DNA of 64,000 bases, taken from positions 1-64,000 of the forward strand of contig NZ_BPFZ01000002.1 of the NCBI RefSeq assembly GCF_030158815.1, given 5' to 3'. Below are positions 50,920-55,464 of this stretch, piece after piece; positions within the stretch are counted from its first letter, which is position 1; the number at the start of each line of letters is the position of its first letter. The DNA comes from Candidatus Phycosocius spiralis (GTDB lineage: Bacteria > Pseudomonadota > Alphaproteobacteria > Caulobacterales > Aquidulcibacteraceae). The notes under the pieces were generated by a model. The model had not been told where the DNA came from. It made no database searches and saw nothing but the letters and a program-made list of their open reading frames with translations. The translations under genes and the position numbers were made by a program.

Positions 50920-50934
50920 TGGCACAGCAATTGC
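50920..50934 (+). promoter_or_regulatory. Sigma-54 promoter for fliK-flgD-flgE
   Basis: TGGCAC-AGCAA-TTGC is a perfect -24/-12 element on the plus strand, about 235 bp upstream of the fliK start. The long leader between them carries a duplicated hairpin. Confidence 0.8.
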
Positions 50935-51016
50935 TTGCCTGTGTGAGAAGGCCATACGAAACCTAAGGATAACCTTGGGGCTTTGTAGTGAAGGCAGAGG
51001 GTCTGGAGACCTAAAT

Positions 51017-51090
51017 TGCGTTTGGTTCTGAAAGAGCCAAACCGCGCGTCACTTAAAACTTGAATGCGTTTGGTTCTGAAAGCTCCAACG
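51017..51090 (+). repeat. Duplicated hairpin-forming element in the fliK leader
   Basis: The 18-base sequence TGCGTTTGGTTCTGAAAG occurs at 51017-51034 and again at 51065-51082, 48 bp apart. In the first copy GTTTGGTTCT pairs with AGAGCCAAAC across a GAA loop, with one G-U. The second copy has a diverged right arm. Neither is followed by a T-run. Confidence 0.7.
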
Positions 51091-51170
51091 TACATGCCAC
51101 CCTTGGCTTATCGGAGCCATAAAGCTGATTAGATCCTAAACATGGGTTGGGACATTCATTGGGGGAAAGA

Positions 51171-52844
51171 GTGTTGGAAGTTGGGGGAAGGATGTTGGAT
51201 ACAGTGGATGGGTCGAACCAATCGCGGCGCGCCAAGCCTGTTTCGCGTCCAAATTCCGATAGCAACGATCAAGAAGCCCCAAGCTTTGCAAATACCATGA
51301 TTGGCTTGGCCCAGCCCACCCAAACCCCTGCCCACAATCAAGAACCACGCACCCCTGATGAAGGGGCTAGCCAGCCAGAGACAAATGCATCGAAGGGTAA
51401 TGGGACAGGTATGGTCTCTTCAGATGCCGCACATTATGCCAACCAAACCGATGGCGCGCAGTCTCATGAGGCTGGTGAAACACGCAGTCTAGCTCCGCCG
51501 GATGGTCTCAGCACTCCCACCACGCCAACGCCACCACTTGCGCCCGCCTTGACCGAGCAGGGGGTAAGCAAGGGGCCGCAAGCGGGTACCAAATCCGATG
51601 ATCTTGCATTGATGGCCATGCTTGCTGGGCTTGGTTTGCAGACTATGAGCCCAGAGCCAGCCACTCAAACAACAGATGCGGCCCAATTGTCGCTGCTTCA
51701 ATCCCTCCAAACGCCAATTGCTGATGGAGCAAAGGCCCTATTCCCAACCCACATAAGTGCCCAGGCAAATACTCAATCAAATAATCTGGCGAATGCTCAG
51801 GCCGCGGTGGTGTCCAACCCCTTTCAAGGGGCTGATGCCAATGCTTGGAGTAAAATGAGTGCCCAATTGCATGAACAACAGATAGGGGGTGGATATCTTT
51901 CCGAACCACCTTCCCCACCAGCCGCCACATTTGTGTCTGGGACCGATTCTTACTCCAGCCCAGGAACCAAACAAATCGACGCTATAGGCCTTAAGCTTGA
52001 AATCGGGGGTGAAGCCAAGGGGCCTGGTGCTCAGCGTGCTGGCGAGATGATCAACTCGCACGTGAACGCACTCAAAGGGAATGGATCGGCTGGTTGGACC
52101 ATCAATACTGGCACCCAAGGAGGCCCGAGTGGAACCAACACGCCTACCCCTGATCCTAGCCTCTTGCAAACGACCAACTCAGGACAAGCTATGGGATTAG
52201 CGACGGGTGCTTTGATTGGGTCAACCCCCAAGTCAGGCCCGAAAGATAGCCAAAGTAAGGTTGAAGGCATAGAGAGTATAGCATCTTCTGCTCCATTGAT
52301 CGGATCTGGCGACGGGGTTACCACGGCGAGCAGAAGTGACGCTCTTAACGTAGTGGCTGGGGGTGATGTTTCCCACAAACCACCAAGCCTTGGGCCCCAA
52401 ACCATTCCCCTTTTGGCAGCCGCAATGATGAGGCGATACAATAATGGGATGAAGGAATTCACATTGCGCCTTGACCCCCCTGAATTGGGGCGAGTCGATG
52501 TTCGCCTGACAGTCAGTGCCAATAAAAAAGTTCGCGCTGTCGTCAGTACCGACCGAGCTGAAGCCCTCAATGACCTTACCCGGTCGGCGCGAGACTTAGC
52601 GCGCGCCCTGATGGACTCAGGTCTGGAGCTAGAGGAAAATGGCTTGTCATTTTCTATGAGCGATCAAGGCCATGCACAGCACCAGCATGGGGGGGAACAG
52701 TCGGCACCTCAACCACAAACCCTTACCCCAGACAAACTTGATTCAGCCGATGCTGCGCGTGTGGATATAGAGCGCGAGACCAAGCAAAGAGCCTTTAGTC
52801 CAGTTGAAATATGGCAACGCACCCGCATCGCTTTAACTGCATAA
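51171..52844 (+). CDS. fliK: Flagellar hook-length control protein FliK
   Basis: About 557 residues. The long N-terminal region is low-complexity, rich in Gln, Pro, Thr, Ser and Asn, as expected of the FliK ruler. The C-terminal FliK domain is clear: MKEFTLRLDPPELGRVDVRLTVSANKKVRAVV and onward to residues before the end. It measures hook length and switches FlhB specificity. The start is uncertain: GTG 51171 has a GGGGGAAAG site, ATG 51192 is also possible, and TTG 51147 is the longest. flgD follows after 15 bp. Confidence 0.85.
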   Translation: MLEVGGRMLDTVDGSNQSRRAKPVSRPNSDSNDQEAPSFANTMIGLAQPTQTPAHNQEPRTPDEGASQPETNASKGNGTGMVSSDAAHYANQTDGAQSHEAGETRSLAPPDGLSTPTTPTPPLAPALTEQGVSKGPQAGTKSDDLALMAMLAGLGLQTMSPEPATQTTDAAQLSLLQSLQTPIADGAKALFPTHISAQANTQSNNLANAQAAVVSNPFQGADANAWSKMSAQLHEQQIGGGYLSEPPSPPAATFVSGTDSYSSPGTKQIDAIGLKLEIGGEAKGPGAQRAGEMINSHVNALKGNGSAGWTINTGTQGGPSGTNTPTPDPSLLQTTNSGQAMGLATGALIGSTPKSGPKDSQSKVEGIESIASSAPLIGSGDGVTTASRSDALNVVAGGDVSHKPPSLGPQTIPLLAAAMMRRYNNGMKEFTLRLDPPELGRVDVRLTVSANKKVRAVVSTDRAEALNDLTRSARDLARALMDSGLELEENGLSFSMSDQGHAQHQHGGEQSAPQPQTLTPDKLDSADAARVDIERETKQRAFSPVEIWQRTRIALTA

Positions 52845-52859
52845 GAATAAGGAAATACG

Positions 52860-53540
52860 ATGACCACCTCAAATATCTCGAACACAAACAACCAGCTTAC
52901 AAATGTTAACACTACGAACCAGAATTCAAAAGCGTCCTTGGCGAAAAATTTTGAGACTTTTTTGACTTTGTTGACTGCACAGCTACAAAATCAAGACCCG
53001 CTTTCCCCTTTAGATACTAAAGACTTCACCAATCAATTAGTGCAATTTTCTGGCGTAGAACAACAGCTCAAAACCAATGAATTGTTAACGTCGCTCACCG
53101 ATGCCACCAAATTAAGCGTTGGCGCTACGGCTGTTGCTTATCTGGGCAAAGAAGCCACCGCAATCTGGCCATCAACAAATTTAACAACCGGGGGGGAAGC
53201 CAAATGGACGTATGAATTGCCGCGCGCTTCATCCAGTACCACCATTCGGGTTCTCGATTCGAGTGGCCGAGTTGTGTTTACATCAACTGGGGAAACCTCC
53301 GTTGGCGAAAAATCCTTTACTTGGAATGGTAAAGATATGTCTGGCAATAATGCACCCAGTGGCACGTATCGATTGGAAGTTGTGGGTATAGGCGGCGATG
53401 GAAAACCCATTGCAGGTACGATCAAACAAAAGGGCATTATTTCTGGTGTCGATCTATCAGGGACAACGCCTAGGATCACAATTAATGGGGTTCCCCTTCC
53501 TTTGTCCACGGTTCTTAAAATCGGACTGCAATCATCCTAA
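52860..53540 (+). CDS. flgD: Flagellar hook-capping protein FlgD
   Basis: 226 residues. The N-terminal signature FETFLTLLTAQLQNQDPLSPLDTKDFTNQLVQFSGVEQQLK is typical of FlgD. A C-terminal FlgD Ig/tudor-like part follows (TIRVLDSSGRVV, SFTWNGKDMSGNNAPSGTYRLEV). FlgD caps the growing hook and is needed for FlgE assembly. It is cotranscribed with fliK and precedes flgE. Confidence 0.95.
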   Translation: MTTSNISNTNNQLTNVNTTNQNSKASLAKNFETFLTLLTAQLQNQDPLSPLDTKDFTNQLVQFSGVEQQLKTNELLTSLTDATKLSVGATAVAYLGKEATAIWPSTNLTTGGEAKWTYELPRASSSTTIRVLDSSGRVVFTSTGETSVGEKSFTWNGKDMSGNNAPSGTYRLEVVGIGGDGKPIAGTIKQKGIISGVDLSGTTPRITINGVPLPLSTVLKIGLQSS

Positions 53541-53627
53541 TCATTTAAATCAACATACAGCATAACATATAAAATCAACGAAAAATCAATACTTGGGTCT
53601 GATAATACGGACTTAAGTGGTTGGGCA

Positions 53628-53662
53628 GAATGCTCCTAACATAAACACGACCAGGAGCATTC
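53628..53662 (+). promoter_or_regulatory. Perfect inverted repeat sequestering the flgE Shine-Dalgarno
   Basis: GAATGCTCCT (53628-53637) and AGGAGCATTC (53653-53662) are exact reverse complements around a 15-base loop. The right arm contains the flgE ribosome-binding site AGGAG and ends two bases before the ATG at 53664. In mRNA the stem would hide the site, so flgE translation is probably controlled through this hairpin. Confidence 0.8.
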
Positions 53663-53663
53663 A

Positions 53664-55055
53664 ATGTCGATCTCTAGTGCCATGTTGGCGGGGGTTTCCT
53701 CCCTGCTGGCCAATTCCACCGCCATGTCTGTGGTTTCAGATAATATTGCAAACTCAAACACCACAGCCTTTAAACGCAATAGAAGCGATTTTACCCGTCT
53801 CGTGAATGTCCAAAGCACAAGCATCCCTTATTCGGCTGGTGGGGTTACTACAAGAACACGACAGCTGATCACTGCGCAAGGTAGTTTAAACTCAACTGGC
53901 ACCGTGACAGATTTAGCAATCAGCGGGCAAGGATTTTTTGTAGTTTCTCCCAACAAGCCAGTAGGATCAGCTGCTGATGATGTCGCCTTCACGCGTGTGG
54001 GTTCTTTTACCCCTGATGATGATGGCAATCTTGTCAATCAGGCGGGATTTTATCTCCAAGGCTGGCGGGTAAAATCAAATGGGGATCTAACAACCAGCCC
54101 AACCGATCTTACGCTCCTTGAAACGGTTAACATTAATTCTGTCTCAGGTACAGCTACGCCTTCAACCATAGCCAAAATAAACGGCAATCTGAAGTCCACA
54201 ACACCAACCAACCCAAATATAACCAACAACACATATAATGTTGCAACCAACAATATGGCCTCTGGCGCGGTAAAGCCAGATGTTGCTTGGACGTTTCAAA
54301 TTTATGACAGTCTGGGAGGGTTAAAAACGTTCACCCTAGGTATGCTTAAAAGTGCGACTGCCAATCAATGGACAACTGAAATCTATGCCTCCCCTGCCAG
54401 CAATATTGCTGCTGGTGCACCCTTAGTTAATGGTCAGATCGCGGTAGGCACTTTAGCATTTACCCCCAACGGCCGTATTGATACCACCAATACAACGGCT
54501 GCCCTATTAGGTGCCTTTAACATTGGGGCAGCAACGGCAAATCCACCAGCTCCGGGTACTGTCAGTTGGGCCCCAAGTACAGGTCTTGCGGCACAAAGTT
54601 TTAGACTTGACCTTGGTCAGATCTCTCCTGAAGGTGGGGTCACTCAATTTGATAGCGCAACCTCAATCAGCAGTACGACGACCGACGGTGCCCTGTTTAG
54701 TGAAGTTCGTGGCATTGAAGTCAGTAAGGATGGATTTGTCACCGCGCTGTTCAATAATGGTGTCACCCGAAAGCTATACAAACTGCCCATAGGCACTTTT
54801 GTTAATCCCGAAGGGCTTCGTCCAGGCAGTGGTGGAATTTATCGGCCAGGAGATAATTCAGGAAACTATAATCTCAAACAAGCTGGAGAGGGTGGTGCCG
54901 GTCAAGTGAACTCATCAAGTTTAGAAGCCTCTACCGTGGATTTGGCACTGGAATTTACCAATATGATCAGTGTGCAACGCGCCTATAGTGCGTCATCCAA
55001 AATCATCACGACGGCCGATGAAATGCTCGACGAAGTGATTCGCATGAAGCGTTAA
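53664..55055 (+). CDS. flgE: Flagellar hook protein FlgE
   Basis: 463 residues. The N-terminal rod/hook motif (SSAMLAGVSSLLANSTAMSVVSDNIANSNTTAFK) and the C-terminal SLEASTVDLALEFTNMISVQRAYSASSKIITTADEMLDEVIRMK are conserved. GQGFFVV lies near residue 88. FlgE polymerises into the hook. The start codon follows directly on a perfect SD-masking inverted repeat. A stem ATCAGAA-AAA-TTCTGAT lies 30 bp after the stop (55086-55102), a weak terminator candidate without a T-run. Confidence 0.95.
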   Translation: MSISSAMLAGVSSLLANSTAMSVVSDNIANSNTTAFKRNRSDFTRLVNVQSTSIPYSAGGVTTRTRQLITAQGSLNSTGTVTDLAISGQGFFVVSPNKPVGSAADDVAFTRVGSFTPDDDGNLVNQAGFYLQGWRVKSNGDLTTSPTDLTLLETVNINSVSGTATPSTIAKINGNLKSTTPTNPNITNNTYNVATNNMASGAVKPDVAWTFQIYDSLGGLKTFTLGMLKSATANQWTTEIYASPASNIAAGAPLVNGQIAVGTLAFTPNGRIDTTNTTAALLGAFNIGAATANPPAPGTVSWAPSTGLAAQSFRLDLGQISPEGGVTQFDSATSISSTTTDGALFSEVRGIEVSKDGFVTALFNNGVTRKLYKLPIGTFVNPEGLRPGSGGIYRPGDNSGNYNLKQAGEGGAGQVNSSSLEASTVDLALEFTNMISVQRAYSASSKIITTADEMLDEVIRMKR

Positions 55056-55194: not shown

Positions 55195-55464
55195 ATGGTG
55201 CACGCCATGCAACGAGAATTATCTGTAACAGGGCCAGAGGGAACACCTCTTACCCTATCGAGTTTACCGCCGCCAAATACGGCGCGCTGGGTTGCCCGTC
55301 GGAAGGCAGAAGTTGTCGCGGCTGTCAAAGGGGGTTTGTTGAGCTTTGAAGATGCTTGCACGCGTTATCGTATCACAACTGAGGAATTCCTAGGTTGGCA
55401 AAGACAAGTAGATCGCCATGGTTTACCAGGCCTTCGTGTAACACGCCTACAAAATTATCGATAA
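55195..55464 (+). CDS. sciP: SciP, CtrA-inhibitory protein (DUF1153)
   Basis: 89 residues with the DUF1153 sequence: LSVTGPEGTPLTLSSLPPPNTARWVARRKAEVVAAVKGGLLS and then EEFLGWQRQVDRHGLPGLRVTR. In Caulobacter SciP binds CtrA in G1 cells and blocks its recruitment of RNA polymerase, and it also touches DNA. The basic helical region ARWVARRKAEVV is intact. A strong GGAGG ribosome-binding site lies seven bases before ATG 55195. It lies between flgE and fliF, as in Caulobacter. Confidence 0.93.
   Translation: MVHAMQRELSVTGPEGTPLTLSSLPPPNTARWVARRKAEVVAAVKGGLLSFEDACTRYRITTEEFLGWQRQVDRHGLPGLRVTRLQNYR

Follow-up and report, generated by a model that had tools for sequence, protein, structure and literature searches.

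A conserved leader upstream of the hook gene flgE of Caulobacterales is predicted to mask its Shine-Dalgarno sequence

Results

Genes and putative transcription unit around the flgE leader

The window, a 64,000 nt stretch from Candidatus Phycosocius spiralis (order Caulobacterales), carries the gene order fliK, flgD, flgE, sciP. The first three genes are on the forward strand: fliK for hook-length control (positions 51,147–52,844; PF02120, with a mechanically assigned start codon), flgD for the hook cap (52,860–53,540) and flgE for the 463 aa flagellar hook protein (53,664–55,055), the product of which is 71% identical to FlgE from Candidatus Phycosocius bacilliformis; sciP, the gene for an inhibitor of CtrA (55,195–55,464), directly follows flgE. 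A sigma54-like promoter (TGGCACAGCAATTGCT, 50,920–50,935, forward strand) precedes fliK. Of 21 loci scanned, 19 (the window and 18 of 20 relatives; the exceptions are L340 and L341) have a site of this type close to the 5′ end of the fliK frame, and none has one at the flgE leader. From this distribution we infer that flgE is probably transcribed within a polycistronic mRNA, the flgD-flgE gap being its leader.

Downstream of the sigma54-like site, the leader of fliK contains a 9-bp hairpin (51,020–51,042; GUUUGGUUC/GAGCCAAAC, loop UGAAA), followed from about position 51,068 by a partial direct repeat that folds differently. This was considered as a second regulatory site and discarded: a C-UGAAA-G hairpin occurs once in the window and in 0 of the 20 relatives scanned.

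The flgE leader contains three hairpins, one of which buries the Shine-Dalgarno sequence

The original prediction of a perfect hairpin masking the ribosome-binding site of flgE was borne out at the level of predicted structure. The exact 10-base complements GAATGCTCCT (53,628–53,637) and AGGAGCATTC (53,653–53,662), with 15 nt between them, form a stem on the forward strand that we designate P2 (53,628–53,662); its right arm contains the Shine-Dalgarno (SD) sequence AGGAG of flgE (53,653–53,657), which the stem buries, and a single base separates this arm from the ATG at 53,664. Folding assigns −14.7 kcal/mol to P2 alone and leaves the SD bases nearly all paired in the window, with probabilities of being unpaired of at most 0.07. 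The transcript around the leader, folded over 181 nt, had a z-score of −3.55 relative to its shuffles, one in 200 of which was as good, and when the upstream segment was dinucleotide-shuffled 20,000 times, the 10-mer complement never appeared.

Two further hairpins on the same strand, absent from the original prediction, lie upstream of or overlap with P2. Hairpin P1 (53,590–53,619) pairs 53,590–53,601 with 53,608–53,619, in a stem of 12 bp with loop AUAAUA. Hairpin PA (53,623–53,635) pairs GGGC (53,623–53,626) with GCUC (53,632–53,635) around the loop AGAAU (53,627–53,631). PA shares the 5′ arm of P2, and its formation competes with SD masking. The PA loop of the window fits the type C-N[A/G]AA(Y)-G that is shared with flagellin leaders (see below), whereas the P1 loop does not.

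Conservation of the leader in relatives

Families and genera are labeled here f1–f5 and g1–g43. Family f1 comprises 37 genomes, including that of the window, and the start of flgE is readable in 36 of them (G013 is without that end). The SD-masking core of P2, GCUCC/GGAGC with at least 5 contiguous bp, is present in 28 of these 36 leaders, and L121 has the core with a bulge, as judged by inspection. The AGAA(N) hairpin with GCAGAA occurs in 31 of the 36, plus L122 as a CCAGAAC variant; it was kept in L029 and L118, which miss the P2 core. Four of the 36 are without PA, L120, L124 and L125 having no GCAGAA and L024 having GCAGAA but no hairpin. In family f4, the leader is present in three representatives of genera g17 and g19 and absent in two of g24. 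Two named Caulobacteraceae loci were also read: GCAGAA is missing from L034 and present in L035, where no P2 is evident. Neither GCAGAA nor PA was found in any of six f3 flgE leaders, although this family possesses both FlbT and flagellin hairpins. G197, from family f2, keeps the AGAA hairpin while its 8-bp P2 is wholly changed (GCUACUUC/GGGAGUAGC, 5′ of flgE), and the SD is again buried.

Hairpins were also seen near flgE in two other loci: in L376 (G052, family f5) GGC-AGAA-GCC abuts the ATG, and L341/L020 (G050, family f3) carries CGGCGCC-UGAAC-GGCGCCG at about −86, with no GCAGAA.

The two-part motif GCAGAA...GGAGC has its sole match in the window's own genome at flgE and, by inspection, is missing from the flagellin leaders of that genome. 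Across the genomes of relatives, the bare pattern GCAGAA..CTYC..GGAGC was about as frequent as its reversed control, so that by itself it is not specific. Two covariance models, R1 and R2, were searched over 398 genomes of the order (E-value of 0.01 or better, with stricter filters). Together they gave 67 matches in the 398 genomes, one per genome and with no overlap between R1 and R2 genomes: 62 are at the start of flgE, two follow flgD at contig ends and three are false. R1 matched in 28 genomes (26 at the flgE start and two at contig ends beyond the flgD sequence) and R2 in 39 (36 at flgE and three elsewhere, in G217, G219 and G346). Among the five weakest R2 matches fetched at flgE, L387 and L388 retain P2 with a bulged base, the SD of L389 is buried by a different fold, and L386 keeps PA with no P2 seen and an SD that is 0.48 unpaired; the fifth is the leader of G197 described above.

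For a finer comparison we parsed 57 distinct leaders from 13 genera; 25 of the 57 are from genus g11 and the counts are thus not independent. PA has a stem of at least 3 bp in all 57, the first pair being built in because selection of the set required CAGAA and, after it, GC, NGC or CGG; its loops are of 4–5 nt, AGAA(N), and its third pair varies among C-G, A-U, G-U and G-C. In 48 of the 57 leaders, the best upstream hairpin (P1), sought without any rule on its loop, precedes the PA loop by 14–22 nt, with just one at 14.

P2 could be parsed in 56 leaders. Its core pairs are nearly invariant and offer little proof by themselves. The inner pairs, however, were paired in 42 and 33 leaders, against shuffle means of 24.6 and 20.6 and above all 500 partner shuffles, and both A-U and U-A occur at these positions within genus g11; among the other flanking positions only −4 comes close (4 of 500 shuffles as high). 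Pairing between the arm and the SD is maintained across loops of 13–50 nt. SD masking is thus kept in relatives and its inner pairs covary, contrary to the lack of covariation that had been named as the outcome speaking against it. The other such outcome, a transcription start inside the P2 loop, appears unlikely from the sequences compared, since conservation includes the left arm and the AGAA loop, which can pair with bases to either side, and since the sigma54-like sites of the 21 loci scanned occur near the 5′ end of fliK and not at flgE.

Predicted accessibility of the SD and competition between PA and P2

Over 55 leaders, the SD was unpaired with a mean probability of 0.10, compared to 0.37 in shuffled sequences, and it was masked (mean below 0.2) in 43 of them; in g12, g10 and g2, with one leader each, the real SD was not less accessible than the shuffled one. 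With PA forced, 26 of the 55 leaders gained more than 0.3 in SD access. Coexistence of PA with part of P2 is feasible in GC-rich genera, where forced PA opens the SD only partly (mean 0.28 in g11), and in g12 and g2 access falls when PA is forced. The PA and P2 folds are 0–3 kcal/mol apart in 8 of 12 genera, and the gap amounts to 5 kcal/mol in g2, 6.5 in g13 and about 9 in g4 and in the window's genus, where the masking fold P2 is the favoured one. According to these energy models, the putative switch seems to be poised in some genera, and in that of the window its default state is strongly closed.

Hairpins of the same type in flagellin leaders

The comparison set comprises 63 flagellin leaders from the f1, f3 and f4 loci fetched, a few of which are alternative starts or doubtful. 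The loop consensus C-N[A/G]AA(Y)-G is a feature defined here, not in the literature, and it was drawn after both gene sets had been seen. C-G-closed N[A/G]AA(Y) hairpins number 68 in the 63 flagellin leaders, about 40-fold over the shuffle mean of 1.65, with at least one in 43 leaders and at least two in 21; the 57 flgE leaders hold 71 (shuffle mean, 1.5), and 44 of the 57 have one with a stem of at least 4 bp. When stems of at least 5 bp were sought whatever their loops, such loops capped 24 of the 41 stems of the P1 zone and, among flagellin leaders, 32 of 177, against 33 of 3,468 elsewhere in the same flgE loci.

Flagellin leaders from f1, f3 and f4 often show two of these hairpins with 12–14 nt between their loops (e.g., L248, L255, L263, L270, L284, and L291). 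The tandem is a candidate FlbT site, and the loci tested for it gave no match to Rfam. This tight tandem does not occur in flgE leaders, with their spacing of 14–22 nt in 48 of 57. Ten flagellin leaders have an AGAA hairpin 17–20 nt, between loops, after the preceding hairpin, and in 11 of the 63 the 3′ arm of the AGAA hairpin holds the likely SD, as in GUCC-AGAA-GGAC. In the f3 flagellin leader L277, GGGGC-AGAAC-GCUCC sits within an 11-bp stem, and its motif is identical to PA of flgE. A model built from the flagellin tandem only (R3) gave many of its stronger matches at flagellin places in 39 genomes and failed to find flgE leaders (best, 13.8 bits, E-value of 1.2, in 45 loci), indicating that flagellin and flgE leaders are alike in parts and not as a whole. 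Outside the set of 63, four flagellin leaders from f2, f5 and g24 of f4 were inspected by eye and had no C-G-closed hairpin of the type; one of them, L253, has a U-A-closed AAAAU loop.

The genomes of genus g1 (G000–G008) contain 6–16 flagellin-domain matches each, above most of the family.

FlbT as candidate RNA-binding protein

FlbT is present in 58 of 61 relatives. Matches were strong (E-value of about 1e-40 or better) in f1, f3, genera g17 and g19 of f4 and two f5 genomes, and weaker in f2, the remaining f5 genomes and g24 of f4; of the 61 relatives searched, only G022, G034 and G059 gave no match. Of 11 flgE leaders read from genomes with only the weaker FlbT, ten are without GCAGAA within 100 nt, an association that is confounded by ancestry, and the remaining one, L131, has GCAGAA at −91 with no hairpin. 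A CsrA match was found in 0 of the 61 genomes. We also observed that the flgE leaders of G022 and G034 keep the AGAA hairpin despite the lack of an FlbT match in these assemblies.

In Caulobacter crescentus, FlbT reportedly bound to flagellin (fljK-type) mRNA leaders in work by Anderson and Gober from 2000. Excerpts of two reviews state that FlbT binds flagellin 5′ UTRs; they list no recognition site and describe the mechanism as unresolved (PMC3930126; PMC4347634). According to reviews, the protein represses or destabilises flagellin mRNA in Caulobacter and is a proposed activator in Brucella (PMC3930126; PMC4347634; PMC8781033), its binding promotes decay of the target mRNAs in Caulobacter (PMC4347634), and relief follows secretion of its flagellin partner FljJ (PMC7591256).

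The N-terminus of FlbT resembles CsrA by eye, a relationship that we discarded: hhalign gave a probability of 1.1%, compared to 9.2% reached by 50 column-shuffled controls, Pfam returned FlbT and one sub-threshold match (ApoM), and Foldseek with a predicted FlbT model (mean pLDDT, 88.8) yielded no PDB match below an E-value of 2.

Discussion

The hairpins are conserved, the inner pairs of P2 covary, the SD is predicted to be masked, the models match once per genome, and the loops are of the flagellin type. On balance, we favour the view that positions 53,590–53,662 are a conserved cis-acting leader that gates the translation of flgE and that is read by the regulator of flagellin leaders, probably FlbT. 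By default, P2 would pair GCUCC with GGAGC and hide the SD of flgE; alternatively, the 5′ part would fold as PA, taking bases from the P2 arm and exposing the SD. P1, upstream of PA at a near-constant distance, and PA itself would be the most likely sites for a protein that reads flagellin-leader hairpins, presumably FlbT. As to direction, a protein bound to PA would open the hook mRNA, whereas on the AGAA hairpin of a flagellin leader it would shut off the SD, the likely signal being completion of the hook-basal body. Gating of flgE had originally been ascribed to, among others, an RNA-binding factor or coupling to ribosomes leaving flgD. The flagellin-type hairpins and the presence of FlbT argue for the former; the latter is not supported in the window, where 88 nt separate the flgD stop (53,540) from the left arm of P2, too great a distance for a terminating ribosome to cover this arm in this genome.

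The far greater stability of P2 than of PA in the window's genus, together with SD masking that is widely kept (below 0.2 unpaired in 43 of 55 leaders), would also fit a fixed attenuator, in which P2 lowers flgE initiation for hook-protein stoichiometry with no ligand and PA and P1 are by-products. We regard this as unlikely, if worth keeping in mind, because the left arm of PA varies together with its right arm beyond the needs of P2, as seen in the third pair, and because the loop type and distance of P1 are preserved in most leaders. The position of the hairpins between flgD and flgE, with P1 shortly past the flgD stop, could instead indicate an intercistronic processing or stability element that steers RNase cleavage or protects flgE mRNA and thereby separates the expression of flgE from that of fliK-flgD. 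Control of decay could indeed contribute, given that FlbT is described as promoting decay of its mRNA targets in Caulobacter (PMC4347634), but as the whole explanation such an element is quite improbable: it does not account for pairing between the arm and the SD across loops of 13–50 nt.

Short palindromes 5′ of a gene, with the gene for a CtrA inhibitor (sciP) coming next, might also be expected of a DNA operator that binds a transcription factor, with an internal promoter driving flgE. That is very improbable, however: a scan of 21 loci for promoters of the sigma54 type found none at the flgE leader, and the loops are constant while stems vary and the P2 arms covary over variable spacing, both of them signatures of RNA. 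Even less probable is a small RNA that would pair with the conserved AGAAnGCUCC and free the SD; a conserved stretch does lie opposite the SD, but the motif sits in hairpins with changing stems, a better fit to a protein. The chance that the inverted repeat is fortuitous is practically nil, as nothing but the view from a single genome speaks for it, against conservation in a dozen genera and covarying inner pairs.

If the leader is read by FlbT, as we favour, a further step may be tentatively considered, namely that FlbT acts through AGAA hairpins as a reciprocal switch between hook and filament synthesis. PA of flgE ties up the anti-SD, and in some flagellin leaders the AGAA hairpin contains the SD itself, so a single protein could drive the two in opposite directions. 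With the hook-basal body unfinished, FlbT on the AGAA hairpins would keep the flgE SD open and the flagellin SDs closed; upon its withdrawal, hook translation would go off and flagellin translation on. Such a switch, if true, would be the translational counterpart of the export-specificity switch. That flagellin waits for the hook in Caulobacter-type bacteria rests on FlbT, by a mechanism that an excerpt of PMC4347634 calls unresolved. C-N[A/G]AA(Y)-G hairpins are proposed here as a concrete FlbT recognition element, extended from flagellins to the hook gene, and the opposite wiring of hook and flagellin leaders predicts opposite responses.

Comparison with known systems

The flgE leader (P1-PA-P2) is apparently undescribed: among the literature matches listed (titles and the beginnings of abstracts, with few subscription journals) there was no description of a structured flgE leader in Alphaproteobacteria, nor of a recognition hairpin for FlbT. 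No Rfam 15 family matched the leaders at gathering score; the single sub-threshold match was RF01072 (E-value of 0.37), downstream of flgE. The flg-Rhizobiales motif (RF01736), presented as a candidate cis-regulatory RNA of Rhizobiales in an excerpt of PMC2864571, is flagellar by name but does not match flgE leaders at gathering score. Likewise, no Rfam 15 family, RF01736 included, matched at gathering score when 12 flgE loci from other Alphaproteobacteria, the majority of them Rhizobiales, were searched.

The tandem hairpins of ANTAR targets have hexanucleotide loops with A1 and G4, whereas PA loops are of 4–5 nt and not hexanucleotide. Control of flagellin by CsrA and FliW is known from Bacillus subtilis and Campylobacter. 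In those bacteria, according to an excerpt of PMC4894983, a leader-binding protein ties flagellar translation to assembly. The flgE leaders differ in that CsrA is found in none of the 61 genomes and their loops are not GGA loops, the GGA being in the stem.

The closest parallel is with the FlbT-bound flagellin leaders of Caulobacter crescentus, which belong to the same order and organelle; the flagellin leaders compared here are those of relatives and not of C. crescentus itself. Both kinds of leader contain hairpins with C-N[A/G]AA(Y)-G loops, and the spacing of 17–20 nt between the AGAA hairpin and the preceding one in ten flagellin leaders resembles that of flgE, mostly 16–22 nt. The flgE leader differs in preceding the hook gene, in being intergenic rather than at its own promoter and in lacking the tight tandem (12–14 nt); the sequence held in its AGAA hairpin is the anti-SD rather than the SD, and masking of the SD is predicted to fall to a separate helix.
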